From contig DAHUXD010000016.1 of the NCBI GenBank assembly GCA_027307335.1, positions 1-40,371 of the forward strand: 40,371 bases of DNA, read 5' to 3'. How positions within the stretch are numbered: position 1 is the stretch's first letter; every line of letters begins with the position of its first letter. Source of the DNA: Acidobacteriota bacterium. GTDB lineage: Bacteria; Acidobacteriota; Thermoanaerobaculia; UBA5066; Gp7-AA6. Below, piece after piece: positions 5,265 to 36,407 of this stretch. The translations under genes were made by a program, and so were the position numbers. Below the pieces are notes generated by a model. That model was not told where the DNA came from, did not search any database, and saw nothing but the letters and a program-made list of their open reading frames with translations.

Positions 5265-7835
5265 TCACCGCAGACCGTCCACCAGATAAAGGTCGGAGAG
5301 GCGCTGGGCGTACGTGAAGACGAGCGTCTTCCCGTCCGGCGTCGCGGCGGACCCGCTGATGCGGCTGATTCCGGTCGGGTCCCTCAGGCTGAATTCCTTC
5401 CACAACTCTCGACGCCCCGTCGCGAGCTCCACGCGATGGATCCGGGCGACGATCGTCTCCCGGACGTCGCGGGCGACGAACAGAAACCGCTGGTCCTCCG
5501 ACCATCGCAGCGGCTGGTCGTTCGGATCGAGTCCCTCGACCGAACGCGGCGGGCCGCCGTCGACCGGATAGACGGCAACCTTCTGGTCCGGCCCGCGAGA
5601 GACGATCCATTTCCCATCCGGCGACAGCACCGACCCCACGACTCCCTCCGGCGTGATGGGCCTCACCTTTCCTCCGTCGAGATCCTCGATCCAAGCGCGG
5701 CGGCCATGGCCGGGCTCGCTTCCGGTGAAGACGACACGCCGGCCGTCGGGCAGGAAGGCCGCGTCGACGGAGTCGTGGTTGATCGAGTCCTTGGGCAAAG
5801 GCCTCGGCTCTCCGATGCCGGTCGGGAGCAGGACCAGAGAGGCGGGCCTCTGCGCCACGAGCGCGGCGAGAACCCATTTGCCGTCGGGGGACAGGGCGAG
5901 GCCCTCGCCTTCTCCGAGCCGGAGCGCCGGGGAGCCGTCCGTCTTACGGAGGTAGACGGAATAGCCGTTGCCGCCTCCCTCTCCCTCCTCCGTGAAGACG
6001 AGCGTCTGGCCGTCCGCAGAGAGCAGAGGGGCACGGGACCAATCGAACCACGACAGGTCGTGCTCCTTCCCGTCCGCGGTCAGAGCAACCATGCCGATCC
6101 GCTCGTTGGACTGAGTCAGCAGGACACGCCCGTCCGCTGAGATGTCTTCGAGCGTCAGAATTCCGGGGGACTTCACGACAACACGACGCCGCCCCGAACG
6201 CGTGACGGCGTAGAGGGCGCGATTGCTCCCGCTCTCGGATGCGGTGAACCAGATTTCGTCGCCCGAGGGCGCCCAGGCCAGACCCTGGGCGGTCGAGAAC
6301 CCGTCCGCCAGCGTCGTCTTCCTGCCACTGCGATCGACGAGGGCGACGGAGCCGGCGTCATCGCCGAACTGAGGATGATCCAGAACGGCGACAACGTCTC
6401 CCCGGCTCGACACGCGAGGATGACTGATCCATCCCGCGGTCTCGTAGAGGACCTTTCCCGCCGGGAACTCCAGACGGTGACGCCATCCCGGAGCTCGCAC
6501 GAGCGCCACGCTCTTCGCGTCGGGGGCCCAGTCGGCGGCGACGACGTCCTCGGCGACGTCGCGCGCCGCGCCGCCCGACAGCGGCGCCACGCGCAGGAGT
6601 CCACGATGAGCGTATCCGACGGAAAAGAGAACGTCCGACAGGACCAGCATCTGACCCGATGCGGAGACCGACTCGACGCTGCCGCTCGGCAAGTCCAGGA
6701 GGAGGGCGCCGGGATCGTCGAGGCGGGCGGTGAATAGTTGAGGTTTCTCCGCTCCCTCCCAGTTCGCCGCGAAGAAAACCGTATGCCCGTCTGGCCCGAA
6801 ACGAGCGCTGCGAATGTATCCGCGGCGGAACGTCAATCGGTGAAACGTCGACGACGAGATTTCAGGCGCCTTCCCGATCCGGCGGCCCACGAGAAGGCCC
6901 CCGAGGGCGATCGCGATGGCCGCGGCCGCGAGGAGGAAGAGTCGGCGAGGTCGATCGAGCGTCGCCGGCGCGGGCGCGCTCGGAACGGAGATGCCGGAGA
7001 GCGCCTCGAGGTCGAACGCGATGTCGGAAGCGGACTGGAACCGGCGTTCCGGATTCTTCTCGAGGCAGTGCCGCACGATCCGGTCGAGACCCGGAGAGAT
7101 GTTCTGGTTCGTCACCGAGAGGTCCGGCGGGTCCTCCTTGAGGATCGCGGCCATCGTCTCGCCCGGCGAGTCGCCCCGGAAGGCGCGCTGCCCGGCGAGC
7201 ATCTCGTACAGAATCGCGCCGAGCGCGAAGATGTCGCCGCGCGCGTCCGCCGGCTTGCCCTTGACCTGTTCCGGCGACATGTAGCCGATCGTGCCCATGA
7301 CGACGCCGGGCTCGGTGGCCGTCGGCAGGTTGGTCGCGTTCGCCGATGCCGCGGTCTCCGTCAGCTTCGCGAGGCCGAAGTCGAGGATCTTGACGCGGAC
7401 GTCCTTCGTCACGAAGACGTTCTCCGGCTTCAAGTCGCGGTGCACGATCCCCTTCTCGTGCGCCGCGGCGAGTCCCTGCGCGATCTGCACGGCGTACTCG
7501 ATCGCCTTGCGCGGCGAGAACCGGCCGCCCGAGAGCTCCGCGCGGAGCGTCTCTCCCTCGAGAAGCTCCTGGACGACGTAGGGCGCGCCGTCGTGGGTGC
7601 CGAGGTCGTGAACGGCGGTGATGTTGGGATGGTTGAGGATGCCCGCCGCGCGGGCCTCCTGTTCGAAACGCTTCAGGCGGTCCGGGTCGCTCGAGAAGGA
7701 GGCCGGGAGGACCTTGACGGCGACGTCGCGTCCGAGGCGCGGATCCTTCGCCCGGTAAACCTCGCCCATCCCGCCGGCGCCGAGGGGCGACAGGATCTCG
7801 TAAGGGCCGAGCCGGCTTCCCGCCTGCAGAGTCAT
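5265..7835 (-). CDS. Membrane Ser/Thr protein kinase with PD40/TolB-like beta-propeller (kinase A)
   Basis: 856 residues. The kinase domain (about 12-275) is complete: Gly-rich loop G-A-G-G-M-G, K41, alpha-C E60, H132-R-D134-L-K-P-E-N, D152-F-G, and M-S-P-E-Q in the activation segment. One transmembrane helix lies near residues 300-320, followed by a long C-terminal region of repeated S-x-D-G-K/R strands typical of PD40 propellers, predicted outside the cytoplasm. The family is thought to couple an external sensor to cytosolic phosphorylation. The C-terminus (L-Y-L-V-D-G-L-R) closely matches that of kinase D at 31078-33675, so they are paralogues. It converges with the monooxygenase 10 nt away. 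A TAGAAT box lies 18 nt before the ATG. Confidence 0.9.
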   Translation of the reverse strand: MTLQAGSRLGPYEILSPLGAGGMGEVYRAKDPRLGRDVAVKVLPASFSSDPDRLKRFEQEARAAGILNHPNITAVHDLGTHDGAPYVVQELLEGETLRAELSGGRFSPRKAIEYAVQIAQGLAAAHEKGIVHRDLKPENVFVTKDVRVKILDFGLAKLTETAASANATNLPTATEPGVVMGTIGYMSPEQVKGKPADARGDIFALGAILYEMLAGQRAFRGDSPGETMAAILKEDPPDLSVTNQNISPGLDRIVRHCLEKNPERRFQSASDIAFDLEALSGISVPSAPAPATLDRPRRLFLLAAAAIAIALGGLLVGRRIGKAPEISSSTFHRLTFRRGYIRSARFGPDGHTVFFAANWEGAEKPQLFTARLDDPGALLLDLPSGSVESVSASGQMLVLSDVLFSVGYAHRGLLRVAPLSGGAARDVAEDVVAADWAPDAKSVALVRAPGWRHRLEFPAGKVLYETAGWISHPRVSSRGDVVAVLDHPQFGDDAGSVALVDRSGRKTTLADGFSTAQGLAWAPSGDEIWFTASESGSNRALYAVTRSGRRRVVVKSPGILTLEDISADGRVLLTQSNERIGMVALTADGKEHDLSWFDWSRAPLLSADGQTLVFTEEGEGGGNGYSVYLRKTDGSPALRLGEGEGLALSPDGKWVLAALVAQRPASLVLLPTGIGEPRPLPKDSINHDSVDAAFLPDGRRVVFTGSEPGHGRRAWIEDLDGGKVRPITPEGVVGSVLSPDGKWIVSRGPDQKVAVYPVDGGPPRSVEGLDPNDQPLRWSEDQRFLFVARDVRETIVARIHRVELATGRRELWKEFSLRDPTGISRISGSAATPDGKTLVFTYAQRLSDLYLVDGLR

Positions 7836-7935: not shown

Positions 7936-7980
7936 CGCGGCGCGATGGGGGCCATCCTTCGGCCCCTCGAGGAGTTCGAG

Positions 7981-9963
7981 ATGATCGCGTCGCGTCGATC
8001 CCTCCTGTTCCTCGGCGTTCTCGTGTCCGCGGCTCTGACTTCCCGGGCGGCGCTCGCGCAGGGATTCAAGGTCATCCACGTCGCCGCGCAGGAGGACGCG
8101 GGACCGCACACGCTCATCCAGAACCCCAACGACGGGTTCTTCTACGGCACCTGCCAGACCGGCGGCGATCACAGTCCGAACGGCTGCGTCTTCAAGATGG
8201 ACGCGACGGGCGTGGTGACGGTCATCCACTCCTTCGGAGGCGCTCCCTCCGACGGCGGCCGGCCCCTCACCGCGCTCTTCCTCGACGACGACGGGCTCCT
8301 GTACGGCACGACGACCAGGGGCGGCGCCAACGACCAGGGAACGGTGTTCAAGCTGGATCCCTCGGGCGGTTCCTACGCCTTCTCGTCGCAGCCGGCGCCA
8401 TGCGCCTCCACCGGTGCGGACCCGGAGGCGAGCCTCTTCAAGGCGAACGACGGAAGCTTCTACCTGCCGCTCGCGGCCTGCGGAGGCACGGCCGAGGTCG
8501 GCACCGTCGACCGGGTCGACCCGTCGCTGTCGGAAACGAGGATCGCCGGCTTCAACGGACTCACGAGCCCGCTGCTGTCGCCGCACGGGCACCTGATCCA
8601 GGGCGCGGACGACAAGCTCTACGGCACGGCCCTCGGGAACACCAACATTCCCGGCAAACACGGCGGCGTCTACCGCGTCGCGCTGGGCGGCGGGCTCGTG
8701 GAGACGGTGCACTCCTTCGTCAACGGCGAGGGGAACAACACCACGGTCTCGGCTCCCCTTCTCCTCGCGAGCGACGGGAATTTCTGGGGAACGACGAAGC
8801 TCGCGACGAATTCCTCGGGCGTCTCGCTCAACACCGGCACGATCTTCCGCGTCGGCGCGGACGGAACGTTCCAGACCATGCACACGTTCACCGGCCCCGA
8901 CGGCCGGCTGCCGGTGGCGGGTCTCATCGAGGCGTCCGACGGATACCTCTACGGCACCACCCTGCAGGGAGGGACGCTCAACCGCGGCGTCATCTTCCGC
9001 ATCGACCTCTCCGGAAACTTCACGCTGCTCGCGAACGTCGCCGATGCCGGGATGGGGCTCGGCCCGTGGAGCGAGCTGCTCGAGGCGTCCGACGGCAAGC
9101 TCTACGGGACGACGCAGATCGGCGGCGGTCTCTTCGGTTTCGGCACCACCTACACGATCGACTTCACGCAGTCGATCGCCGACATCGTGCCGAACTCCGG
9201 ACCGTCCGCCGGCGGCACGCCCGTCACGATCGACGGCACGGGCTTCATTTCGGGCGCGAGCGTCTTCATCGGCATCAGCAAGGCGACGGCGATTTCGGTG
9301 GTGGGCAGCACCCTCATCCACGCCACCACGCCGATCGGCGACCCCGGCACGATCGTCAACGTGAAGGTCACTCTTCCGGACACGACGGTGATCCTCCTGA
9401 ACGACGGCTGGATGTACGACTTCCTCGACCTCCCGACGGGCGCGCTCTTCCACGACGACGTGCGCACGCTCCTCGCGAACGGCATCACCGCGGGTTGCGG
9501 CGGCGGCGACTACTGCCCCGCGGCCCCGGTGCTCCGCAAGCAGATGGCGGTGTTCGTGCTGAAGTCGAAGTACGGCTCCACCTACCAGCCGCCTCCCGCC
9601 GTGGGCATCTTCACGGACGTGCCGGTCTCCGATTCCTTCGCGCCGTGGATCGAGGCGCTCTACCATCTCGGCGTCGTCGCCGGATGCGGCCCGGGACCGA
9701 CGTATTGCCCGGACGACGCCGTCCTCCGGCAGCAGATGCCGGTCTTTCTCTTGAAGACTCTCCTCGGCTCCGCTTACGTACCGCGCCACTGCACGGGCCT
9801 CTTCGCCGACGTTCCCTGTCCGAGCCTCTTCGCCGACTGGATCGAGGACGTCGCGACCCGCGGCATCGCGGCGGGCTGCGGCGGCGGGAACTTCTGCCCG
9901 GCGAATCCGACGACGCGCGGCCAGATGGCGCCGTTCCTGGTCCATACGTTCGGCCTGCAGTAA
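7981..9963 (+). CDS. Secreted GloVer-repeat protein with IPT/TIG and three S-layer homology domains
   Basis: 660 residues. A signal peptide (about 1-27, ending A-L-A-Q) precedes six or seven GloVer repeats, each with L-Y-G-T-T-x-x-G-G followed by G-x-V-F-K/R, spanning about residues 30-390. An IPT/TIG Ig-like domain follows (I-V-P-N-S-G-P-S-A-G-G-T-P-V-T-I), then three SLH domains in the last ~190 residues. Each SLH carries a C-G-x-G-x-x-C-P pair. The protein is probably anchored at the cell surface, with the GloVer part folded as a propeller. The start at 7981 is preferred over ATG 7945 because of the GAGGAG before it and the good signal peptide; 7945 remains possible. No partner gene is evident. 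Confidence 0.85.
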   Translation: MIASRRSLLFLGVLVSAALTSRAALAQGFKVIHVAAQEDAGPHTLIQNPNDGFFYGTCQTGGDHSPNGCVFKMDATGVVTVIHSFGGAPSDGGRPLTALFLDDDGLLYGTTTRGGANDQGTVFKLDPSGGSYAFSSQPAPCASTGADPEASLFKANDGSFYLPLAACGGTAEVGTVDRVDPSLSETRIAGFNGLTSPLLSPHGHLIQGADDKLYGTALGNTNIPGKHGGVYRVALGGGLVETVHSFVNGEGNNTTVSAPLLLASDGNFWGTTKLATNSSGVSLNTGTIFRVGADGTFQTMHTFTGPDGRLPVAGLIEASDGYLYGTTLQGGTLNRGVIFRIDLSGNFTLLANVADAGMGLGPWSELLEASDGKLYGTTQIGGGLFGFGTTYTIDFTQSIADIVPNSGPSAGGTPVTIDGTGFISGASVFIGISKATAISVVGSTLIHATTPIGDPGTIVNVKVTLPDTTVILLNDGWMYDFLDLPTGALFHDDVRTLLANGITAGCGGGDYCPAAPVLRKQMAVFVLKSKYGSTYQPPPAVGIFTDVPVSDSFAPWIEALYHLGVVAGCGPGPTYCPDDAVLRQQMPVFLLKTLLGSAYVPRHCTGLFADVPCPSLFADWIEDVATRGIAAGCGGGNFCPANPTTRGQMAPFLVHTFGLQ

Positions 9964-10015: not shown

Positions 10016-10042
10016 TGGTTGGCCCGCGCAGCGGGCCACCAA
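10016..10042. other. Inverted repeat beside the tRNA-end repeat
   Basis: GGCCCGC (10021-10027) pairs perfectly with GCGGGCC (10031-10037), and the stem extends to about 12 bp with one bulged T. It lacks a T-run, so it could be a weak terminator for the GloVer gene or part of a recombination site, because it directly abuts the direct repeat at 10043. Confidence 0.5.
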
Positions 10043-10059
10043 GAATCTGGCTGGGAGGC
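10043..10059. repeat. Direct repeat, distal copy (att-like, tRNA-Gln 3'-end fragment)
   Basis: GAATCTGGCTGGGAGGC is identical to 12321-12337. In the second position it covers the last 12 nt of tRNA-Gln (part of the acceptor stem, discriminator base and CCA) plus 5 nt downstream. Similarity stops at both ends, as expected for an integration core or a displaced tRNA end. Confidence 0.6.
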
Positions 10060-10080
10060 CGAGTGCCGGGCCTCAGATCC

Positions 10081-12258
10081 ATGAGCCGTGCCGAGACCGC
10101 AGGAAACGCCTCCCGCTCCGAGGGTTTCCGTCCGGACATCGAGGGCCTCCGGGCGGTCGCGGTGGGTCTCGTGCTCGCCTATCACGCGGGCGTGCCGGGA
10201 GCGACCGGCGGCTTCGTCGGGGTCGATGTCTTCTTCGTCGTGTCGGGCTTTCTGATCACCGGACTGCTGCTGCGCGAGCGGGCGAATACGGGCACGGTTT
10301 CGTTGAGCGCCTTCTATGCACGCCGTGCCCGGCGGCTCCTCCCGGCCGCTGCGCTGGCCATCGTGCTCACGGTCATCGCCTCGGCGCTCGTCCTTCCACC
10401 GTTGCGAGCCGCCGACGCCGCGGCGGATGGTGTCGCGGCCGGCCTCTACGCATCGAACATCCGCTTCGCCCTCAGGGCAACCGACTACCTGCAGGCGGAG
10501 CTGGCCCCGTCGCCGCTCCTCCATCTGTGGTCGCTGGGCGTCGAGGAACAGTTCTACCTCTTCTGGCCCGCGCTCCTGCTCGTCGCCACGCGGGCCCGGG
10601 CCGACGTCGTCCGGCGCGCAGGATGGGTGATCGCGGCGGTGAGCGTCGCCTCGTTTGGCCTCTCGGTCTGGTTGACGTCCGTCGCGGAGCCGTGGGCGTT
10701 CTTTTCCCTGCCGACGAGAGCGTGGGAGCTGGGGCTCGGGGCGGTTCTGGCCGTCGGCGCGGGCAGACTCCCGCGCCTGCCGGGGATGCTTGCGGTGAGC
10801 GCCGGCTGGATCGGGCTGGCGATGATCATCGCGTCGGCGGTCGTCATCGACGCGAGCACCCCCTTCCCGGGAATCGCCGCCCTGCTGCCGACCGTGGGCA
10901 CCGCTCTGACTCTCCTTCCCGGCATGCGGAACCAATCCAGCGCTCCGGTCCGCCTGCTCGGCTGGTCGCCGATGCGCTTTCTGGGTCGCATCTCGTACTC
11001 CGTCTATCTCTGGCATTGGCCCCTCATCGTCCTGCCCCTCGCGGTGGCCAACCGCCTGCCGCTCGCGGTGCGCGTCGGTCTCGCGGTGCTGGCAATCGTG
11101 GTGGGCTGGGCCAGCGAACGATGGGTGGAGGCTCCAATCCGCCGCGGGAGGTTCGTGAGTATTCGGCCAGGCCGGAATCTCGCTCTCGCGGGAATGACGT
11201 CCGCGGCCCTGGTCGTGGGGTCTCTCGGGGTGCGCTCCATGGTTCTGGCGCCGATCCGGTCGCACGCCGCGTCCGTGACCGGATCGATCAACGCGGACGA
11301 CTTCCCGGATCCGTTCGGTTCGCCCGAGCCCTCCGCCGCACGCTGGTCGCCGGGTTCGCCGGGCTCATCCGCGCCATCGCCGGCGACGACTCCGCCGGCC
11401 ATCTCCGGCGGGCCGTTGCCCCTGGATCTGACGCCGTCCCTCGTGGCGGCCCGGGACGACGTCCCTCGCACCCTCAGCGACGGATGCAACCAGAACGCGC
11501 TGAGCACGACGATTCCAGAGTGTGCATACGGCGACACGGGATCCGCAACCACCGTCGTCTTGTTCGGCGACTCGCACGCCAACCAATGGTTCCCGGCAAT
11601 CGAGTGGCTGGCGAAGAAACGCGGGTGGAGGCTCGTCTCGCTCACCAAGAACGCCTGCACCCCCGCGTCGATGACCGTCTGGAACTCGCGGATGAAGCGC
11701 GCATACGCCGAGTGCGACCGCTGGCGCGAGAGTGCCTTCCAGCGGATCGCCATGGAGCATCCGGCTCTCGTGATCGTGGGCAGCAGCCGCTCGTATCAGC
11801 CCGCGGGAACTGAAGGGCCGTCCGCGCCAGTCGGAGGCCGGCCGCTGCAGGTGGCGCTCGAAACCACCCTGGCGCGGCTCGAAGGGTTGGCCGGTGCCGT
11901 TGTCCTGTTGGGCGACACGCCAAATCTTGTCGGTGACCCGCCCGAATGTCTGTCACAGCACCGCGACGACGTCCGTGCTTGTGCCCAGCCGCGCGATCAG
12001 GTGACGAACCCGGCCTGGACGAACGCCGAGCGCGAAGCGGCGTCCCGTGCAGGGGCGTCGTATATCGACACGGCCGGCTGGGCCTGTCCGTCCGCCCCCT
12101 GCCCGGTCGTCTTCGGACGTTACCTGGTGTTCCGCGATTGGCACCACCTCTCGACGCCGTTCGTCCTGGCCCTGCGCCACCGCCTCGCGGACGCCCTGAC
12201 GAACGCCCTCAACGCGACCGTCGCCTCGCCGCCCGCTTCCGCAGCACCTCAGGAGTGA
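10081..12258 (+). CDS. OafA/YrhL-type acyltransferase with C-terminal SGNH domain
   Basis: 725 residues from ATG 10081. An earlier in-frame ATG at 10009 would run through the inverted and direct repeats and is less likely. The N-terminal ~370 residues are an acyltransferase-3 domain: R-P-D-I-E-G-L-R-A-V-A-V with active-site H35, F-V-G-V-D-V-F-F-V-V-S-G-F-L-I, and about ten membrane helices. A Pro/Ser-rich linker follows, then a periplasmic SGNH domain with G-D-S-H (496-499) and D-W-H-H (686-689) as catalytic Ser and Asp/His motifs. Such fusions O-acylate surface glycans (O-antigen, exopolysaccharide, peptidoglycan). The gene is the only one between two copies of the tRNA-Gln 3' end, suggesting transfer as a unit. 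Confidence 0.9.
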   Translation: MSRAETAGNASRSEGFRPDIEGLRAVAVGLVLAYHAGVPGATGGFVGVDVFFVVSGFLITGLLLRERANTGTVSLSAFYARRARRLLPAAALAIVLTVIASALVLPPLRAADAAADGVAAGLYASNIRFALRATDYLQAELAPSPLLHLWSLGVEEQFYLFWPALLLVATRARADVVRRAGWVIAAVSVASFGLSVWLTSVAEPWAFFSLPTRAWELGLGAVLAVGAGRLPRLPGMLAVSAGWIGLAMIIASAVVIDASTPFPGIAALLPTVGTALTLLPGMRNQSSAPVRLLGWSPMRFLGRISYSVYLWHWPLIVLPLAVANRLPLAVRVGLAVLAIVVGWASERWVEAPIRRGRFVSIRPGRNLALAGMTSAALVVGSLGVRSMVLAPIRSHAASVTGSINADDFPDPFGSPEPSAARWSPGSPGSSAPSPATTPPAISGGPLPLDLTPSLVAARDDVPRTLSDGCNQNALSTTIPECAYGDTGSATTVVLFGDSHANQWFPAIEWLAKKRGWRLVSLTKNACTPASMTVWNSRMKRAYAECDRWRESAFQRIAMEHPALVIVGSSRSYQPAGTEGPSAPVGGRPLQVALETTLARLEGLAGAVVLLGDTPNLVGDPPECLSQHRDDVRACAQPRDQVTNPAWTNAEREAASRAGASYIDTAGWACPSAPCPVVFGRYLVFRDWHHLSTPFVLALRHRLADALTNALNATVASPPASAAPQE

Positions 12259-12320
12259 AGAAGGGGAGAGAGCATCACCCGGTGGGTATGCAGCGGAGGA
12301 ACCTGCCGGCGTTTCCGAAG

Positions 12321-12337
12321 GAATCTGGCTGGGAGGC
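12321..12337. repeat. Direct repeat, tRNA-proximal copy
   Basis: The same 17 bp as 10043-10059. Positions 12326-12337 belong to the intact tRNA-Gln, and 12321-12325 lie just beyond its CCA end. The offset between the copies is 2278 bp. Confidence 0.6.
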
Positions 12338-12399
12338 AGGGACTCGAACCCCGATTCACTGGTCCAGAGCCAGTTGTCCTACCATTGAACGACCTCCCA
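12326..12399 (-). tRNA. tRNA-Gln (anticodon CTG)
   Basis: 74 nt including an encoded CCA. The 7-bp acceptor stem TGGGAGG/CCTCCCA is perfect, the discriminator base is G, the anticodon stem is ACTGG/CCAGT around the loop CTCTGGA (anticodon CTG, reading CAG), and the T-arm contains GTTCGAGTC. It lies alone between the acyltransferase and the pterin dehydratase genes, on the opposite strand to both. Confidence 0.95.
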
Positions 12400-12417
12400 G
12401 TCGCTCGAGGGACGCGG

Positions 12418-12447
12418 ATTATCGAGGATCGACGCCGCCGCCGTCAA
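12418..12447 (-). promoter_or_regulatory. Promoter of tRNA-Gln
   Basis: On the minus strand TTGACG (12447-12442) and GATAAT (12423-12418) are spaced by 18 bp, with 18 nt from the -10 box to the tRNA 5' end. This is the best consensus promoter in the window, as expected for a stable RNA gene. Confidence 0.75.
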
Positions 12448-12485: not shown

Positions 12486-12845
12486 ATGGTCGACGACATG
12501 GAGGGGCTGGCGGGGAAGTCCTGCGCGCCGTGCCGGGGCGGCGTCCCGCCGCTCCCCCCGGACGACGCCGAAGAGCTCCTGCGTCAGACGCCGGGCTGGA
12601 CGCTCGCGGAGGACGGGACGCGGCTGCGCCGGAGCTTCGAGTTCCGCGATTTCGTCGCGGCGATGCAATTCGTCAATCGGGTGGCCGATCTCGCGGAAGA
12701 GCAGGGCCACCATCCCGACATCGCGATCCACTGGAACCGCGTCGAGCTCACGCTCTGGACGCACAAGATCGGCGGACTGCACGAAAACGACTTCATCCTC
12801 GCGGCGCGGGTGAACCGGCTGCTCGAAAGGCGGAATCGCGCGTGA
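12486..12845 (+). CDS. phhB: Pterin-4a-carbinolamine dehydratase
   Basis: 119 residues, normal for the PCD/DCoH family. The motif E-E-Q-G-H-H-P-D-I (72-80) holds the catalytic histidines, followed by T-L-W-T-H-K-I-G-G-L at 89-98. The N-terminus K-S-C-A-P-C-R-G-G matches the usual bacterial start; a second ATG at 12498 is possible. The enzyme dehydrates 4a-hydroxytetrahydropterin formed by aromatic amino acid hydroxylases, but no such hydroxylase is present here. Its TGA overlaps the GTG of the next gene (GTGA). Confidence 0.92.
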   Translation: MVDDMEGLAGKSCAPCRGGVPPLPPDDAEELLRQTPGWTLAEDGTRLRRSFEFRDFVAAMQFVNRVADLAEEQGHHPDIAIHWNRVELTLWTHKIGGLHENDFILAARVNRLLERRNRA

Positions 12846-25179: not shown

Positions 25180-27793
25180 CGATCACGTCGAGCGGCAGTG
25201 TGGAGGGATCGACCTCCGGGACGACAGCGAGGATGCGTTTTCCGTCCGGCGTCACGTCGAAGGACGTCCACGCCTTTCCCTCGGGAAACGTGAAGAGGTC
25301 CACCGGGCTCCCGACCTGAAGGGAAGGATCGGTCCGAATCGGAACCGTGACGAGGCGGGCATCCTGGGAGACGAAGAGCAGTTCGCCGGTCCGGATCCAC
25401 CGCAGCGCCTCCGCTTGCCGCGGGAGAAGGCGCACTCTCTCCCCGGGCCCCGGGAAAGGCGTCACGTAGATCGCCCCCGAGCCATCCTCGACGGAGAGAT
25501 AGGCCACGTAGCGGCCGTCGGGCGAGAAACGGGCGGCGACCTTGTTGAACGGCGACTTCACGAAGAGAGTCGGCGGGGCTTTGTCGGCGAGCGCGAGAAC
25601 CCACAGGTCGAAGATTCCCTGATCGCCCCGCTGGCGAAACAACAGCCACTTACCGTCGGGCGAGACGTTCTCGGCGGTCTGGAACACTCCGAACGGCAGC
25701 ATCTCCTCGACGCGCCCGGTCGCGAGGTCCTGGCGAACGAGCTGGGGCGAGCGACCCCGGACCGCCGCGTACACGAGCGTGTTTCCATCCGGAAGCAGAA
25801 TAGGCCAGATCTCCGTGTCTGGCCCGGGCGACACCGGCGACTCCGCCGACGTCTCAGGATCGATCGACCCGATGCCGAATGCGCCCGTCGCGGGCCGGGC
25901 TCGGGTGAAGAAGACGCGCTTTGCGTCCGGGGAAAACGTCACGTCGAGATAGTTCCCGGGCGGCCCGAGGACGCCGAGCCGTTTCCCGGAGCGGTCGAAC
26001 CACACGAGGCGGCTCACGTCCGAGTGTGACTGAAAGGCCAAAGCTCCGCCCTTGCCGATGGTGAAGGCGGCGTAGCCGGAGGACGCGAAGTAGGACAGAC
26101 GGGGGACCACCGGTACTGCCTCGCCCGTGACTCGGCCGCTCGCCGCATCGAACGGCCTCGCCAGCAGGGACGCGTCTCGAGCGAAGAAGAGAAATCCGGG
26201 CTCCGCATACTCGACGCGCGACGCCTCGGCCATCACCTTCGCGGGCGGGCGGCCCGGCTCGTAGAGCATGACCGTGGACTTTCCGTCGAGGCTCCGGGCG
26301 AGATAGAGGAGCCGCCGGCCGTCCGGTAGGAACGTCGGCCAGTTGAATCGTCCCTCGCCGCGAGCGCGATCGGGCTCGAGCATTTTCACCGCGCTGCCTC
26401 CCGCCGCGGCGACCCGATAGAGGGCCTCTCCCTGTACGCTCGCAAACACGATGTCCCCGGCAGAGCTCCAAGTCGCCGAGATGCCGGTCTCGCCGGGAAC
26501 TTCGCAGATCGTGACCGCCGAACCCCCATCGCGTCCGACTCGTCGGAGCCGGTTGCCGGCCGCAAAGCCGATCGTTCCGCTGTCCGGGGACCAGAACACC
26601 GTCCGTGCATCCTCGGTACCGGCGACCGGCTTCGGCTCGGACTCGGAGAGAGGTCGCAACCAGATCCGCCGCCCCTCCTTCCCCGCAGCGATGAACGCGA
26701 GCACTCTGCCGTCCGGCGAGAATGCGTAGACCGAATTCTCGACCGTCTCGCTCTGGAAGGACTCGCCCGCGGGTGGCGGGACCGAGAAGTGGATCGGCGC
26801 CAGGGGCGCCGGCTGTTGACGGTTTCCTCGCAGGAGCACGGCAGCCGCGACGATGCCAGTGATTGCCGCGACGGCCCACGGCACGACCGCGCGGCGCGGC
26901 GCCCGGGGCGAGACCGCGGCCGGTATCGCCGATGCCCCGCTTCCGCCGACCGCGCGCAGCTGCAGCTCGACGTCGTGCGCCGACTGCCAGCGCTCGGGCG
27001 GATCCTTCGCGAGGCACGTGCGAACGAGTCGATCGAGCTCCGGGGGCGTGACGGGCTGGATCGACGAGACCGGCGGGGGGTCCGCCGTCAGGATCGCGGA
27101 GATGACGGTCGCCTGAGTCGCGCCCGTGAAGGCCTTCTTCCCCGTGAGCATCTCGTACAGCAGGGCGCCCAGCGCGAAGATGTCGGTGCGCGCGTCCGCT
27201 TCCCTGCCCTGGAGCTGCTCGGGCGCCATGTAGGCGACGGTCCCGACGATCACACCATCCGCCGTGAGCGGGGCGATCGTCGGCGCCTCGGTCAGCCCCC
27301 CGGCGGCGCCCGCGCCCTGAAATCCCCGCGCCAGGCCGAAGTCGAGGAGCTTGACGCCCTCCTTCGTCAGCATGACGTTGCCGGGCTTCAGGTCCCGGTG
27401 CACGATGCCGCGCCGGTGCGCCGCGTCGAGCGCGGACGCGATTTCCGCGCCGTAGCGGAGCGACTGAGAGAGCGCCAACGGCCCGCGGCCGAGGCGGTCG
27501 CCGAGCGTCTCTCCCTCGAGGAGCTCCATGACGAGGTACTCGGTCTCGCCGTCGCGGCCGACGTCGTGCAGGATGCAGATGTGCGGATGCGTCAGCTGCG
27601 AGATGGTTTTTGCCTCGCGCTCGAAGCGCTCCCGCGCCTCCGGCGTGGGCGGGCGGTGGGACGGCAGGATTTTGATCGCAACCTCGCGTGCGAGCCGCGG
27701 GTCGCGCGCCCGGTAGACCTCCCCCATGCCCCCCGCGCCCAGCGACGCGAGGATCTCGTAGGGGCCGAGCTTCGTACCCGGGACCAAGGCCAT
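25154..27793 (-). CDS. Membrane Ser/Thr protein kinase with PD40 propeller (kinase B)
   Basis: 879 residues. Complete kinase domain: K41, E60, H132-R-D134-L-K-P-G-N, D151-F-G, and M-A-P-E-Q. The stretch between DFG and A-P-E is long and rich in Ala, Gly and Thr. A membrane helix near residue 300 (A-V-V-P-W-A-V-A-A-I-T-G-I-V-A-A-A-V-L-L) is followed by PD40-type repeats (F-S-P-D-G-R, W-S-P-D-S-G, F-L-P-D-G-R). The C-terminus (D-V-I-V-N-W) matches that of kinase E (V-V-V-L-N-W), marking a second paralogous group distinct from kinases A and D. A TAAAGT box lies 12 nt before the ATG. The 3' end overlaps the MFS gene. Confidence 0.9.
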   Translation of the reverse strand: MALVPGTKLGPYEILASLGAGGMGEVYRARDPRLAREVAIKILPSHRPPTPEARERFEREAKTISQLTHPHICILHDVGRDGETEYLVMELLEGETLGDRLGRGPLALSQSLRYGAEIASALDAAHRRGIVHRDLKPGNVMLTKEGVKLLDFGLARGFQGAGAAGGLTEAPTIAPLTADGVIVGTVAYMAPEQLQGREADARTDIFALGALLYEMLTGKKAFTGATQATVISAILTADPPPVSSIQPVTPPELDRLVRTCLAKDPPERWQSAHDVELQLRAVGGSGASAIPAAVSPRAPRRAVVPWAVAAITGIVAAAVLLRGNRQQPAPLAPIHFSVPPPAGESFQSETVENSVYAFSPDGRVLAFIAAGKEGRRIWLRPLSESEPKPVAGTEDARTVFWSPDSGTIGFAAGNRLRRVGRDGGSAVTICEVPGETGISATWSSAGDIVFASVQGEALYRVAAAGGSAVKMLEPDRARGEGRFNWPTFLPDGRRLLYLARSLDGKSTVMLYEPGRPPAKVMAEASRVEYAEPGFLFFARDASLLARPFDAASGRVTGEAVPVVPRLSYFASSGYAAFTIGKGGALAFQSHSDVSRLVWFDRSGKRLGVLGPPGNYLDVTFSPDAKRVFFTRARPATGAFGIGSIDPETSAESPVSPGPDTEIWPILLPDGNTLVYAAVRGRSPQLVRQDLATGRVEEMLPFGVFQTAENVSPDGKWLLFRQRGDQGIFDLWVLALADKAPPTLFVKSPFNKVAARFSPDGRYVAYLSVEDGSGAIYVTPFPGPGERVRLLPRQAEALRWIRTGELLFVSQDARLVTVPIRTDPSLQVGSPVDLFTFPEGKAWTSFDVTPDGKRILAVVPEVDPSTLPLDVIVNWAPPAR

Positions 27794-27805
27794 CGGAGCC
27801 AGGCA

Positions 27806-27811
27806 ACTTTA
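27806..27811 (-). promoter_or_regulatory. -10 box of kinase B
   Basis: TAAAGT on the minus strand with a 12-nt gap to the ATG at 27793, the same short spacing as the TAGAAT boxes of kinases C and E. Confidence 0.4.
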
Positions 27812-27859
27812 CCCTCGCGCATCGCTTTCGGGATAAAAGGCATTCCAAGGAGGCCCCCC

Positions 27860-28267
27860 ATGGGTATGTTCGACCAGCTCCTCGGAGGCGTCGTGGGCCA
27901 GCTCGGCAACGCGCAGCAAAAGGGATCGTTGATGGACCTCGCGACTCAGGTCATCCAGAGCCAGCCCGGGGGGCTGTCGGGTCTGCTCGCGAAGTTTCAG
28001 TCGGCCGGACTCGGCGGGCACGCCGACTCCTGGGTCGGCACCGGGCCCAATCAGCCCGTCACCGCCGATCAGATCTCGAACGTCCTAGGTTCCGACAAGG
28101 TCGCCGCGATGGCGCAGCGGCTCGGCGTCAATCCGCAGATGGCGAGCACGGCGCTGGCGACGCTCCTGCCGGTCGTCGTCGACCACCTGACGCCGAAAGG
28201 GCAGGTCGACCACGGCGCGGACCTCGGCGCCGCGCTCACCGCGCTGAAGTCGAAGTTCCTGGCTTAG
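27860..28267 (+). CDS. YidB-family (DUF937-like) protein
   Basis: 135 residues, with AAGGAGG (27847-27853) 6 nt before the ATG. The sequence M-F-D-Q-L-L-G...G-G-L-S-G-L-L-A-K-F-Q-S-A-G-L-G-G-H-A-D-S-W-V-G-T-G-P-N-Q-P-V-T-A-D-Q-I is the family signature, followed by a second half with A-x-x-L-G-V-N-P and a V-D-H-L-T-P-x-G motif. The molecular function is unknown. It lies alone between two oppositely oriented signalling genes. Confidence 0.88.
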   Translation: MGMFDQLLGGVVGQLGNAQQKGSLMDLATQVIQSQPGGLSGLLAKFQSAGLGGHADSWVGTGPNQPVTADQISNVLGSDKVAAMAQRLGVNPQMASTALATLLPVVVDHLTPKGQVDHGADLGAALTALKSKFLA

Positions 28268-28274
28268 GCCGGGA

Positions 28275-28739
28275 TCAGGGCCGCGCCGCGGGCGGGAGCG
28301 TCCGCATGTGGATCTCGGTCCCGCCCTTCTCGTACCGCACCTCGTCCATGAGCTGATTGATGAGGTAGATCCCGCGGCCGCCGGTCGAGAAGAGCTGCTG
28401 GCCGAGGATGGGGCTCGGGATCGACGCCGGGTCGAAGCCGGGACCCGGATCGCGCACGACGATCAGCATGCCGCGCGCGTGGTCGCACGCGACGCAGCAC
28501 TGAATCTCCTTCGAGGGATCGTGGCCGCTGCCGTGCTCGACCGCGTTCGCCAGCGCCTCGCGCAGCGCGAGCTCGATCTCGAACTCGCGGCCGGCGGCGC
28601 AGCCCATCTCGGTCACGATGTGCATCACCCTCTCGACGACCGGCGATATCGCGTTGACGTCGCCGGGCAGCTTCAGGTCCGCCTGGACCAGCAGGTCCTC
28701 GCGGTCGAACTCGCAGCGTGCCGGAGCCGGAGCGTTCAT
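28275..28739 (-). CDS. RsbW/SpoIIAB-like ATP-binding regulator (HATPase_c_2)
   Basis: 154 residues. N-box R-E-A-L-A-N-A-V-E-H-G (60-70), G1 box D-P-G-P-G-F-D-P (97-104), and G2-like S-T-G-G-R-G-I-Y-L-I (118-127) define a stand-alone GHKL ATPase like anti-sigma factor kinases. Such proteins phosphorylate an anti-sigma-factor antagonist and bind a sigma factor. Here neither partner is adjacent. The gene starts 28 nt after kinase C on the same strand, which suggests it is the terminal gene of that unit. Several Cys residues lie in the middle (C-C-V-A-C). Confidence 0.88.
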   Translation of the reverse strand: MNAPAPARCEFDREDLLVQADLKLPGDVNAISPVVERVMHIVTEMGCAAGREFEIELALREALANAVEHGSGHDPSKEIQCCVACDHARGMLIVVRDPGPGFDPASIPSPILGQQLFSTGGRGIYLINQLMDEVRYEKGGTEIHMRTLPPAARP

Positions 28740-28767
28740 GAGGGCCTCCTGTCGGCGATGCGTCGTC

Positions 28768-31029
28768 TCACTCGGGCCGGATCTGATCCAGCAGCGTATC
28801 GAAACGCGGGTCGGAGCGCAGCGGGTCGAACGCCTGGTCGTGGCGCAGCCACGCCCACAGGAACGTGTTGCGCTCCTCGAGGGCGCGCGCCAGGAGGGCG
28901 AGCGCGGCGTCGGTCTCGCCGAGCTGCGCCCGGACGAAGGCGAGGTGGACCGGCGGCACGTAGAGGCGTTTCGCGAGGCCCTCGAGCTCCTCGAGGACGC
29001 GGCGCGCGTCGGCCGAGCGGCCCGCCGAGGCGAGGGTCATGCCGAGCATCGCGAGCGCCCACGGCATCTCCCGCTGGCTCTGCGCGGCGAGCCTCTCGAG
29101 CGCCTCGATCCCCTCGTCGTAGCGACCGCCGGCGCGGCAGGCGAGACCGAGCGCGAAGAGCGCATAGACCGAATTCGGATCGACGTGCACGGCCTTGCGG
29201 AAACCGACGATCGCCTCGTCGTAGCGGCGCGCGAAGTAGTACGTCATCGCCGCGTTGACGTGCGTGTTGGCCGACATCGGCTCGAGCTCGACGGCGCGCC
29301 GTCCGAGCTCGAGCGCCTCGTCCTTGCGGGACGTCGTCGAGAGCAGGAGGGCGAGCCAGGAGTAGCCGTCCGAAGAGCGCGGCGCGAGCTCGATCGCGCG
29401 GCGGAAGTGGCGCTCCTCCCGGTCGAGGTCCCACCGGTAGTAGTGATCGAGGATCCCGAGCGCGACGTGAACGTCCGCGGAATCGGGCTCGAGATCGCGC
29501 GCCTTCTCCGCCGCCGCCTGCGCCTTCGCGAAGGCCTCCCGCGTCGGAATCCCTCCGTAGAAGCCGTACGTGCAGTACGAATCGGCGAGGCCCGTGTAGG
29601 CGGCCGCGAAGCCGGGATCGCGCGCGATCGCCGCCTCGAACTCGACGACGGCCTTGGCGGACGCGCGCTGGTTGAAGAAGTAGCGGCCCTTGAGGAAGCG
29701 GTTGTACGCCTCGACGTTCCGGGTGCCCGGCGTGACGAGGGACTCCTCCTCCTCCGGGAGCAGCTTCACCTTCAGCGCGCCGGCGATCGAGCGCGAGATC
29801 TCGTCCTGGACCTCGAAGACGTCCTTCATCTCCCGGTCGTAGCGCTCCGACCAGATGTGGTACCCGCTCGAAACGTCGACGAGCTGCGCGGTGATGCGCA
29901 GCCGCTGGCCCGCCTTGCGGACGCTGCCCTCGAGAACGCTGCGCACGCCGAGCTCGCGGCCGATCTGGCGGACGTCGGTGTCCTTCCCCTTGAAGGCGAA
30001 CGACGAGGTCCGGGCGGCCACGCGCATCGCCGCGATCGCCGCGAGGGCGCTGATGATCTCCTCGGTCATGCCGTCGCTGAAGTACTCGGCGTCCGGGCCG
30101 GCGCTCATGTTGCGGAACGGCAGCACGGCGATCGAGGCCTCGCTCCGCTCCGCGGGACGCGCGCTGCCCGTCGCCGGCGACCGCGGGCCCGACGGCTCGC
30201 GCTCCGCCGCCTGCAGCGCGAACGCGAAATCGCGCGCGGACTGGAATCGATCCTCCGGGCTCTTCTCGAGGCCGTGGGCCAGGATGCCCGTCAGCTCCGG
30301 CGGGACGCCGCGGCCCGCCGTCGGCGACGGCTCGTCCTGGAGGATGCTCATCATGGTCTCGACGGGGTTCTCGCGTTGAAAGGCACGCTTCCCGGTGAGC
30401 ATCTCGTAGAGGATCACCCCGAGCGAGAAGAGGTCGGAGCGGTGATCGACCGGCTTGCCGCGGATCTGCTCGGGGGACATGTAGCCCGGCGTGCCGACGA
30501 CCGTTCCCGAAGCCGTCAGCGACTCCGGGTTCGACCCCTCGCTCGGTCCCTTCGTCTCCCGCGCGATGCCAAAGTCGAGGATCTTGACGATGCCGTCGCG
30601 CGTCAGGAAGAGGTTGTCCGGTTTCAGATCGCGGTGGACGATGCCTCGGTCGTGAGCGGCCGCGAGACCGCGGAGAATCTGCTCGGCGTACTCGATCGCT
30701 TTGCGCGGCGGAATCGCCGACGCCTCCAGGCGCTCCCGCAGCGTCTCGCCCTCGAGCAGCTCGGTCACGCTGTAGACGACGTCGCCGTCGTGGCCGAAGT
30801 CGTGGATCGCCATGATGTTGGGGTGGGACAACGAGGCGACGGCTCGCGCCTCGCGCTCGAAGCGCGCGATGGCCTCGGCGCTGCCCGTCGAGAGCTGGGG
30901 CAGCACCTTCACTGCGACGTCGCGCCCGAGCCGCGAGTCTCGCGCGCGGTAGACCTCCCCCATTCCTCCCGACCCGAGCGGGGACAGGATCTCGTAGGGA
31001 CCGAGGCGGCGGCCCTGGGCGATCGTCAT
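28768..31029 (-). CDS. Soluble Ser/Thr protein kinase with TolB-N-like and TPR domains (kinase C)
   Basis: 753 residues. The kinase domain is complete (K41, E60, H132-R-D134, D152-F-G, M-S-P-E-Q). After a short linker comes a TolB-N-like/FlgO-like domain from about 305 (I-A-V-L-P-F-R-N-M-S...F-S-D-G-M-T-E-E-I; V-L-E-G-S-V-R-K-A-G; H-I-W-S-E-R-Y-D-R), the architecture also seen in some adenylate cyclases. TPR-type helical repeats fill the C-terminal ~330 residues. No transmembrane helix is visible, in contrast to the four other kinases here, so it should be cytosolic. It lies 48 nt after kinase D and 28 nt before the RsbW-like gene. Confidence 0.9.
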   Translation of the reverse strand: MTIAQGRRLGPYEILSPLGSGGMGEVYRARDSRLGRDVAVKVLPQLSTGSAEAIARFEREARAVASLSHPNIMAIHDFGHDGDVVYSVTELLEGETLRERLEASAIPPRKAIEYAEQILRGLAAAHDRGIVHRDLKPDNLFLTRDGIVKILDFGIARETKGPSEGSNPESLTASGTVVGTPGYMSPEQIRGKPVDHRSDLFSLGVILYEMLTGKRAFQRENPVETMMSILQDEPSPTAGRGVPPELTGILAHGLEKSPEDRFQSARDFAFALQAAEREPSGPRSPATGSARPAERSEASIAVLPFRNMSAGPDAEYFSDGMTEEIISALAAIAAMRVAARTSSFAFKGKDTDVRQIGRELGVRSVLEGSVRKAGQRLRITAQLVDVSSGYHIWSERYDREMKDVFEVQDEISRSIAGALKVKLLPEEEESLVTPGTRNVEAYNRFLKGRYFFNQRASAKAVVEFEAAIARDPGFAAAYTGLADSYCTYGFYGGIPTREAFAKAQAAAEKARDLEPDSADVHVALGILDHYYRWDLDREERHFRRAIELAPRSSDGYSWLALLLSTTSRKDEALELGRRAVELEPMSANTHVNAAMTYYFARRYDEAIVGFRKAVHVDPNSVYALFALGLACRAGGRYDEGIEALERLAAQSQREMPWALAMLGMTLASAGRSADARRVLEELEGLAKRLYVPPVHLAFVRAQLGETDAALALLARALEERNTFLWAWLRHDQAFDPLRSDPRFDTLLDQIRPE

Positions 31030-31043
31030 CGGCTCACGGACGG

Positions 31044-31049
31044 ATTCTA
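31044..31049 (-). promoter_or_regulatory. -10 box of kinase C
   Basis: TAGAAT on the minus strand, 14 nt before the ATG at 31029, inside the 48-nt gap after kinase D. It gives kinase C and the RsbW-like gene a promoter of their own. Confidence 0.45.
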
Positions 31050-31077
31050 TGCGGGAGCTAAATGTCAGGGGTGTGGA

Positions 31078-33675
31078 TCAGCGCAACCCTTCGATGACAT
31101 AGAGCTGCCCGAGGGTCCGGCGGCCCTCGACGGTCCAGGCGTCGCCGCTCGTCGTCATTCGCACCCGAATGCCCTCGATCGAGTTGTCGTATGCGAACTC
31201 CTTCCAGAGGTGGCGCTGCCCGGTAGTGATGTCGTAGAGCGCCACCTTCTGGGGCCGCTCCCCACGCCGGTAGGTGTAGAGATACCGGGAGTCCCTGCTC
31301 CACTGCTGGATCCGGTCGTCCGGCGTCGACAGCCCCGGAAGGACCCGGTCGGCACCGGCACCGTCGAGCGACACCAGATGCACTTCTCCGCGCCGGACCG
31401 CAACGGCGAACCTGCCGTCGGGCGACACCGGGTTGGTCCAATCTTCGAGGATCAGGCGCTCGGAGCCGATCGCCCGTGGCTGGCCTCCACGGACCGCCTG
31501 GACGAAGAGACGCATGGTTCCCTCCTTGCTCTTCGCCGAAAAAACGATCGAATTGCCGTCGGGCAGGAAGGAGCCCCACGAGATGTCGGAGAGGTTTCCC
31601 GTGGCGAGCTCCGTCGGCTGGCCGGGACCCGTCGGAAGGAGGGAAAGCCCCGGCGGCTTCCCGCCGGAGGGCGGGATCCATGCCAGCACCCACTTACCAT
31701 CCGGAGAAAGAGACCAGGCGTAACCCTCGCCGAGCTTGACCGCGGGCGAGCCGTCGGTGGAGCGGAGGTACACGACGGGCCAGGCTCCGGCACCTTCGCC
31801 CATCTCGTTCAAGAGAACCGTCCTCCCGTCGGCGGACAGGTCGGCGACGCTCGACCCGTCGAGCCACGAGACCTCGCGCTCGACCGGGGCCGACACTGAG
31901 GCAAAGCGCACCGACTGAGCGACGGTGGCGTACCCGACGAGCGCTCTCCCGTCCCTCGCAATGTCGTCGAGCTCGATGGTCTCCGGCGCGCGCATCACGA
32001 GCCGGCGCTTGCCGGACAAATCGACCGCCCAAAGACCAGGGGGCTGGCCAAGATGCTCGTTCGCCGTGAACCAGACCTCGTGCCCATCCGCGCTCCAGCA
32101 CGGGACCCCCTGCAGGTTGATCCAACCGGACGAGAGAACCCGCTTGTCCCTGCCATCCCGGCCGATGACCGACACGGCATTGGACGTATCGCTCACGGCC
32201 TCCCAGAACGACACGAGACTGCCGTCTCGCGAGACGCGCGGATTCGACGCATTCTTCTCGACGAGAATCTTTCCGATGGGGAACTCGACGCGCGATTGGC
32301 CGTCGACGACGTGGGAGACGGCCAGATCCTTCCCGTCGGGCGAGAAGTCGGCTCCGGCGTAGTCCACGTCCTCGAGCACCAGCCGGGGCGTCCCTCCGGA
32401 CATCGGGACGCGTGCGAGGGTCCCGAGCGGCCGTGTCAAGGGCGTCTGAAGGATCGCCAGCTCGTTCGAGACCGAGATCGCGAGAACGTCGCCTCCGAAG
32501 TCGAACGCGGCCGACTCCGGACTTCCGACCTGGGTACGGTAGAGCCGCGTGCCTGGCGGATCCCCGTTCCATCGCGCGCCGTAGACGACCGCTTGCCCGT
32601 CCGGCGTGAAACGGGCATTGCTCACCGGGCCCTGCCGGAAGGTCAGCCGAGTGAAACGCGGGGTCGGGGGCGGTGCGACGAGGCGCCCCCGAAGAAGCCA
32701 CCCGGCGACGCCCGCCGCCGCGGCAACGAGCACGACACCGACGGCGAGGACCGGCACGCGGCGGCGCGCCTTCGGCGTGGACGCGAGCGCGGCCTCGGCG
32801 CCGCTCGAGACCTCCGAGATGTGGTCGCGGACGCTCGCGAGGTCCCGCGCGAGGTCCCGCGTCGAGGCATAGCGCTCCTCAGGCTCCTTGGCCAGACACC
32901 GCTCGAGCATCCAGCGCAGCGAAAGCGGCAGCTCCGGGCGGAGCTTCCCCACCGGCTCCGGATCGTCCCGGATGATCGCCGACATCGTCTCGGCCGCCGT
33001 CTTCTTCTGAAACGCTTTCTGGCCGGTCGCCATCTCGTACAGGATCGAGCCGAAAGAGAACTGGTCCGACCGGAAGTCGAGCGGCTCGCCGGACGCCTGC
33101 TCCGGCGACATGTAGCTGACGGTCCCCATCACGGTCCCCGGGCGTGTCTCCCCCTCGGTCATGGTCGGCATCACCGAAGCGGCTCCCGACTCCGGCTCGA
33201 CGAGCTTGGCCAGCCCGAAGTCGAGGATCTTCACGAACCCGTCCTTCGAGACCATCACGTTTTCGGGTTTCAGATCCCGGTGCATGATGCCGGCGGCATG
33301 CGCCTTGGCGAGCCCGTCGGCGATCTGCGCGGCGACCGGGAGGATCCGGCGCAGCGGCATCGGGCCGGACACGCAGAGGTCCCGCAGCGTCTTGCCGTCC
33401 ACGAGCTCCATGGCGAGGTAGGCCGTCTCCTCCTCGCGGCCGACGTCGTGGATCGTCACGATGTTCGGATGATTCAGCGCCGAGGCCGCGCGCGCCTCCC
33501 GCTCGAACCGGGAGAGGCGATCGCGGTCCTGCGCCAGCGACTCGGGCAGCACCTTCAGCGCGACCTCGCGACCGAGCCGCGAATCCCTCGCCCGGTACAC
33601 CTCTCCCATGCCGCCCGCGCCCAGCGGCGAGAGGATCTCGTACGGACCGAGGCGGCTCCCCGCCGACAACGTCAT
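31078..33675 (-). CDS. Membrane Ser/Thr protein kinase with PD40 propeller (kinase D)
   Basis: 865 residues. Kinase signature residues are intact (K41, E60, M-H132-R-D134-L-K-P-E-N, D-F-G, M-S-P-E-Q). A helix near residue 310 (V-P-V-L-A-V-G-V-V-L-V-A-A-A-A-G-V-A-G-W-L-L) precedes the PD40-type propeller (R-F-T-P-D-G-Q, L-S-P-D-G-K, F-L-P-D-G-N). The C-terminal L-G-Q-L-Y-V-I-E-G-L-R matches kinase A, so these two are the same subgroup although 25 kb apart. Its ATG overlaps the stop of kinase E (ATGA, 33672-33675), implying co-translation. Confidence 0.9.
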   Translation of the reverse strand: MTLSAGSRLGPYEILSPLGAGGMGEVYRARDSRLGREVALKVLPESLAQDRDRLSRFEREARAASALNHPNIVTIHDVGREEETAYLAMELVDGKTLRDLCVSGPMPLRRILPVAAQIADGLAKAHAAGIMHRDLKPENVMVSKDGFVKILDFGLAKLVEPESGAASVMPTMTEGETRPGTVMGTVSYMSPEQASGEPLDFRSDQFSFGSILYEMATGQKAFQKKTAAETMSAIIRDDPEPVGKLRPELPLSLRWMLERCLAKEPEERYASTRDLARDLASVRDHISEVSSGAEAALASTPKARRRVPVLAVGVVLVAAAAGVAGWLLRGRLVAPPPTPRFTRLTFRQGPVSNARFTPDGQAVVYGARWNGDPPGTRLYRTQVGSPESAAFDFGGDVLAISVSNELAILQTPLTRPLGTLARVPMSGGTPRLVLEDVDYAGADFSPDGKDLAVSHVVDGQSRVEFPIGKILVEKNASNPRVSRDGSLVSFWEAVSDTSNAVSVIGRDGRDKRVLSSGWINLQGVPCWSADGHEVWFTANEHLGQPPGLWAVDLSGKRRLVMRAPETIELDDIARDGRALVGYATVAQSVRFASVSAPVEREVSWLDGSSVADLSADGRTVLLNEMGEGAGAWPVVYLRSTDGSPAVKLGEGYAWSLSPDGKWVLAWIPPSGGKPPGLSLLPTGPGQPTELATGNLSDISWGSFLPDGNSIVFSAKSKEGTMRLFVQAVRGGQPRAIGSERLILEDWTNPVSPDGRFAVAVRRGEVHLVSLDGAGADRVLPGLSTPDDRIQQWSRDSRYLYTYRRGERPQKVALYDITTGQRHLWKEFAYDNSIEGIRVRMTTSGDAWTVEGRRTLGQLYVIEGLR

Positions 33676-36356: not shown

Positions 36357-36369
36357 GATCTGGCTTCGA

Positions 36370-36375
36370 ATTCTA
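36370..36375 (-). promoter_or_regulatory. -10 box of kinase E
   Basis: TAGAAT on the minus strand, 13 nt before the GTG at 36356. It lies within the same 58-bp intergenic region as the oppositely oriented TAGAAT of the DUF481 gene. Confidence 0.5.
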
Positions 36376-36401
36376 TCGCCCGACTTTCACGACCGAGGCC
36401 G

Positions 36402-36407
36402 TAGAAT
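36402..36407 (+). promoter_or_regulatory. -10 box of the DUF481 gene, leaderless spacing
   Basis: TAGAAT with 7 nt to the ATG at 36415, placing the expected transcript start at the start codon. There is no Shine-Dalgarno sequence. Confidence 0.5.

Follow-up and report, generated by a model that had tools for sequence, protein, structure and literature searches.

Additive flexible genomic islands, in which gene cassettes are located at transfer RNA (tRNA) genes, have been described for Actinomarinales (PMC7771536), for the island fGI-2 of Methylopumilus (PMC10872708) and for Alteromonas (PMC5217437). The additive islands of Methylopumilus have repeats of the last 20 nucleotides (nt) of tRNA-Lys and hold from 1 to 63 genes (PMC10872708). 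Two further kinds of element are bounded by tRNA genes. The tDNA islands recognized by Islander have a length of 2-200 kb and consist of an intact tRNA, a displaced 3' fragment of it and an integrase gene inside (PMC4383910), and the tycheposons of Prochlorococcus and Methylophilaceae are 4-200 kb long and have a tyrosine recombinase and a border tRNA (PMC10872708). A related arrangement is found in the window studied here, a stretch of 40,371 nucleotides from an Acidobacteriota bacterium (contig DAHUXD010000016.1), where a 17-bp direct repeat, one copy of which overlaps the end of a tRNA-Gln gene with the anticodon CTG, delimits an interval of 2,278 bp with a single gene, coding for an OafA-type acyltransferase fused to an SGNH domain. 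With a probability of roughly 0.75 this 2.28-kb unit would go back to a site-specific integration event that used the 3' end of tRNA-Gln(CTG) as its target, and would now be a remnant with one cargo gene.

The unit works like the cassettes of the additive flexible genomic islands of marine and freshwater bacteria. It differs from them in the phylum and the tRNA (Acidobacteria and Gln), in being a single unit seen in one genome of its genus, and in the tRNA part of the repeat, which amounts to 12 nt as compared to about 20 nt in these islands. The geometry of Islander islands is found as well, as the displaced fragment lies downstream of the intact tRNA in the same orientation at a suitable length, but no integrase lies between the two sites, where the acyltransferase gene stands alone. 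Since Islander requires an integrase gene inside, it would reject the unit. Like tycheposons the unit is bounded by a tRNA and carries cargo, but no tyrosine recombinase was found in the unit or elsewhere in the window. The cargo belongs to the same AT3-SGNH fusion family as the O-antigen acetylase morons (PHROG 6705) often carried by phages; unlike these, the unit contains no phage gene, and the identity to homologues from phages is only about 30-43%. The kind of arrangement is thus already known, and new is an example without integrase in another phylum. It shows a single surface-modifying gene that has come to lie next to a tRNA and whose two junctions can still be read. In this little-studied class of Acidobacteria, units as small as this would escape tools which insist on an integrase.

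Both copies of the 17-mer GAATCTGGCTGGGAGGC are exact. They comprise the CCA, the discriminator base, the entire 3' strand of the acceptor stem and one base of the T-stem, followed by five nucleotides past the tRNA gene. An earlier note made from the letters alone had reported this duplication at the same coordinates, had recognized in the second copy the CCA end and part of the acceptor stem of an intact tRNA-Gln together with the five nucleotides beyond, had noticed an inverted repeat at the left copy, and had found only the OafA-SGNH gene and no integrase in the 2278-bp unit. All this was borne out, the tRNA by ARAGORN and Rfam, the inverted repeat as a real hairpin and the gene content by gene calls and Pfam. 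Its judgement that chance is an unlikely source of the match stands, too. Under a Markov model of order 3, built from 241 kb of the window's genome, 3e-7 matches of 17 nt would be expected in 5 kb of a single strand, and 6e-4 in the entire genome. Frequent occurrence of the 17-mer elsewhere, which the note had regarded as damaging to its case, was not seen, as no third copy with up to two mismatches is present anywhere in the 4.37-Mb genome. The junction of an empty site, in which the flank ending at 10042 is joined directly to the tRNA 3' end, would read ...CCACCAAGAATCTGGCTGGGAGGCAGGGACTCG... A tmRNA (transfer-messenger RNA) call of ARAGORN at 11705-12418, which overlaps the acyltransferase and the tRNA genes, was treated as a false positive.

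Table 1. Features of the tRNA-Gln locus, with positions in the window.
Feature	Position	Strand	Evidence	Remarks
Gene to the left of the unit, surface protein of IPT/TIG and SLH type	7945..9963	+	Pfam	Outside the unit; stops 79 bp left of the left copy
Strong hairpin just past the displaced 3' end	10017..10042	.	-19.1 kcal/mol, ~11 pairs	Follows the displaced copy after 6 nt
Left copy of the 17-bp repeat	10043..10059	.		Proposed far junction, with the displaced tRNA-Gln 3' end; may double as ribosome-binding site of the acyltransferase
Membrane O-acyltransferase of the OafA type, 725 aa (amino acids), with a fused SGNH esterase domain	10081..12258	+	Pfam, PHROG	Only cargo gene
Right copy of the 17-bp direct repeat	12321..12337	.		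Proposed tRNA-side junction; 12 nt of tRNA 3' end and 5 nt downstream
tRNA-Gln, anticodon CTG, intact, CCA encoded	12326..12399	-	ARAGORN; Rfam RF00005, 59 bits	Proposed integration target, restored at the right end
Sigma-70-like promoter match, TTGACG-18-GATAAT	12418..12447	-	10/12	Just upstream of tRNA-Gln
Right flanking gene, pterin-4a-carbinolamine dehydratase	12486..12845	+	PF01329 4e-35	Adjoins tRNA-Gln in family mate G002 too

The best hairpin after the intact tRNA reaches only -7.6 kcal/mol and is thus much weaker than the one after the displaced copy. Most other genomes point in the same direction, though not all of them, and a tRNA-Pro island of the window's own genome, described below, shows the opposite. 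The hairpin at the left copy is likely the original terminator of tRNA-Gln, an argument of modest weight.

The only cargo gene carries an Acyl_transf_3 domain (PF01757, 5.5e-28, 98.4 bits with a cut-off of 31) followed by an SGNH domain (PF19040, 1.6e-30, 107 bits with a cut-off of 27), both above the curated cut-off, which is the make-up of OafA-type AT3-SGNH proteins. The match to PHROG 6705 (6e-134) spans nearly the full length of the protein. Because a GDSH block with the SGNH nucleophile and a late DWHH block are present when its translation is read by eye, the gene looks intact. A sequence search against solved structures gave no match. The acyltransferase likely acylates a glycan of the cell surface. 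Together with relatives of at most 43% identity it was found in 13 of the 149 genomes of the class, the window genome included, and was absent from the other 136 and from both other members of the family; none of the homologues elsewhere in the class lies within 1.5 kb of a tRNA.

The nearest relatives are metagenome-assembled genomes labelled Acidobacteria, of the group 7 type, and the family sample consists of three genomes, namely the window genome, G001 and G002. G002 has tRNA-Gln and the pterin dehydratase gene next to each other, like the window, but past the 3' end of the tRNA an MFS-like gene follows. In G001 tRNA-Gln is found in another context, inverted and 7.7 kb away from the pterin dehydratase gene. 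The 3' flank of the tRNA is accordingly different in all three genomes, which is compatible with an insertion site, though short of proof given the few genomes and their divergence.

New evidence comes from the class as a whole. A scan of the 149 genomes with the last 17 nt of tRNA-Gln, allowing one mismatch, gave 13 extra copies of the 3' end on the contig of the tRNA in nine other genomes (G019, G034, G037, G055, G058, G063, G064, G065, and G105). All 13 lie downstream of the tRNA on the same strand, at distances of 99 to 12,528 bp; the control, for which the pattern was read backwards, gave 15 matches scattered across the whole set. In addition, a second complete tRNA-Gln gene is present in G020, at 2.09 kb from the first, and several copies are found in G060, where the contig breaks off within one of them. 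A second survey covered 71 tRNA-Gln sites, which included the window and had partly been picked for having copies, with known tRNA genes masked. Within 10 kb the opposite strand gave no exact copy of at least 15 nt, whereas the strand of the tRNA gave ten downstream; it also gave two upstream, both at the G060 locus with its second tRNA copy. The block shared in the relatives usually consists of 15-22 nt of the tRNA and ends 0-2 nt from the CCA, which matches the expectation for attachment sites in the T-stem (PMC4383910). Within this class of Acidobacteria, tRNA-Gln is used repeatedly as a site of integration.

Integrases are found beside such ends in two genomes. In G055 an integrase remnant directly follows tRNA-Gln, with the displaced 3' end 3.5 kb off, and this remnant is 61% identical to an intact integrase of G042. 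The intact frame (L190, 8550-9884) runs across a tRNA-Gln 3' fragment away from the contig with tRNA-Gln, and a terminator-like hairpin with a run of T follows the fragment. The class therefore probably has integrases that act at this site. The window's own genome contains a tRNA-Pro(GGG) island of 15.7 kb, which served as a positive control (contig C38:51632-67456, L157 with L195). It is composed of the tRNA, an integrase, a gene with a weak match to tail tape-measure proteins and an exact displaced tRNA 3' end, so that this bacterium is a host of ordinary tRNA islands.

From these findings a course of events can be proposed for the window. An element that encoded a tyrosine recombinase and brought its own version of the tRNA 3' end would have integrated at tRNA-Gln(CTG). 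The copy brought along by the element would have restored the tRNA, and the original 3' end would have been displaced to 10043 together with its flank and probably the terminator hairpin. The rest of the element would have been lost later, leaving the two junctions and one cargo gene that was selected as useful; the recombinase may have been lost as well or may never have been part of the unit. In this picture the act of integration and the enzyme behind it are inferred, as are the loss of the remainder and the substrate of the acyltransferase. Integration is favoured because the repeat is exact, unique and placed at a tRNA 3' end in the orientation which integration predicts, because further tRNA-Gln 3' ends are found again and again across the class, downstream and in the orientation of the tRNA, because integrases adjoin such ends in G055 and G042 and the genome itself hosts the tRNA-Pro island, because the acyltransferase is sporadic, absent in the family mates and assigned to a PHROG of phage morons, and because the hairpin after the displaced copy is the stronger one.

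Several observations weigh against it. The genus is represented by the window genome alone, and the tRNA 3' flanks of G001 and G002 are non-homologous to that of the window. In the other examined genomes of the window's own order no displaced copy was seen. The block in the window, with its 12 nt of tRNA and 5 nt beyond, is unlike that of most relatives, and a different enzyme or decay may therefore be responsible. The composition of the unit is ordinary as well (tetranucleotide distance in the 42nd percentile, GC 0.70); composition was uninformative and was dropped as evidence for transfer.

A much less probable, though not far-fetched, alternative is that the unit is a live minimal cassette, moved in trans by an integrase encoded elsewhere. 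The tRNA-Gln 3' ends of the class would then anchor a pool of integron-like cassettes, made up of single genes or toxin-antitoxin pairs with a tRNA 3' fragment at the end of each, which are added and lost serially by a tRNA-Gln integrase acting in trans, the unit in the window being one of them. The cargo at the tRNA-Gln site does vary across the class, and in several members the tRNA-Gln 3' ends enclose no more than a single gene or a single toxin-antitoxin pair. Type II toxin-antitoxin genes are the lone cargo in two of these, VapBC (Phd/PIN) in G063 (L181), where the stop codon of the toxin is located 4 nt before the fragment, and VapC (PIN) in G019 (L176). The cargo of G058 resembles a nucleotidyltransferase by reading alone, Pfam giving no match; in G020 the tRNA-Gln ends enclose a multihaem cytochrome that has TPR repeats. 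There are also short serial arrays in places, G034 having two to three fragments. Four genomes of f4 and f5 contain fragments with motifs of element ends in common next to the tRNA part: a GTTCGAACTTC-like motif upstream of those of G023, G037, and G019 (L186, L179, L176), and GTTAGATAA at the three fragments of G034 (L171, L185). These common motifs suggest a family of elements with related ends. A likeness of the attachment site to the core site of integrons (GTTAGAT in G034) was considered and dropped, as the other genomes read GTTCGAA there; the junction in the window is accounted for by the tRNA.

The junction in the window, however, lacks the motif that the other fragments share. An identical cassette was not found at any other place, and a collection of viral contigs contained neither junction pattern. 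The earlier note had proposed to look for integrases encoded elsewhere which target tRNA-Gln. Of the six tyrosine recombinases of the window's genome two adjoin other tRNAs (Gly and Pro) and two look Xer-like, and none belongs to the family associated with tRNA-Gln, so that a link to an integrase of the own genome was rejected and mobilization in trans is only a possibility. Of the two origins offered by the note the remnant of a larger island is favoured over a unit mobilized in trans. The note's central view, with the intact tRNA at one end of the unit and a displaced 3' end at the other, is supported by the recurrence of this arrangement in other families and by the integrases in two genomes. 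If cassettes do move in trans, tRNA-anchored cassette exchange would extend from the marine and freshwater bacteria cited above to this group.

Coincidence, or selection of another kind, is an improbable explanation. The left copy would in this case be part of the acyltransferase leader, its GGGAGG resembling the acceptor stem by chance. As GGGAGG is located 4 nt upstream of an in-frame GTG at 10063, the left copy may indeed double as a ribosome-binding site. Unrelated 17-mer repeats also exist among coding genes of the window, and in an empirical control 2 of 1,500 random 30-mers had a 17-nt match within 5 kb, in a genome rich in coding paralogues. A ribosome-binding site, however, explains only about 6 of the 17 bases, the Markov expectation is very small, and the match ends within about 5 nt of the place where the tRNA scars of the relatives end. 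Slippage or recombination might also have duplicated the tRNA 3' end locally, in which case no mobile element would be involved and the acyltransferase would have arrived separately. Such a duplication may account for the copies of G064, G065, and G058, in which the shared block reaches 25-60 nt past the tRNA and which in G064 and G065 are only about 160 bp apart. It is very improbable for the window, where the copies are 2.28 kb apart and have only 5 nt in common past the end of the tRNA, and where the gene between them is missing in both family mates.

Some further observations were made on the surroundings of these sites. An intact integrase of 399 amino acids directly follows tRNA-Gly(CCC) on contig C57 (L156, tRNA at 9680-9754) of the window genome; a displaced tRNA-Gly 3' end was not found in the 50 kb scanned. 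The left flanking gene of the unit is one of many IPT/SLH-type surface protein genes that have undergone a very large, lineage-specific expansion, with 98 matched stretches in the window genome as compared to three weak matches in one family mate and none in the other, and cannot anchor synteny for this reason. A relative at C38:67684-67851 also lies some 230 bp away from the displaced end of tRNA-Pro. Several kinase-like reading frames at 5265-7835 and 27592-36404 of the window have 17-mers in common; the frame at 5265-7835 codes for a protein kinase with WD40-like repeats.
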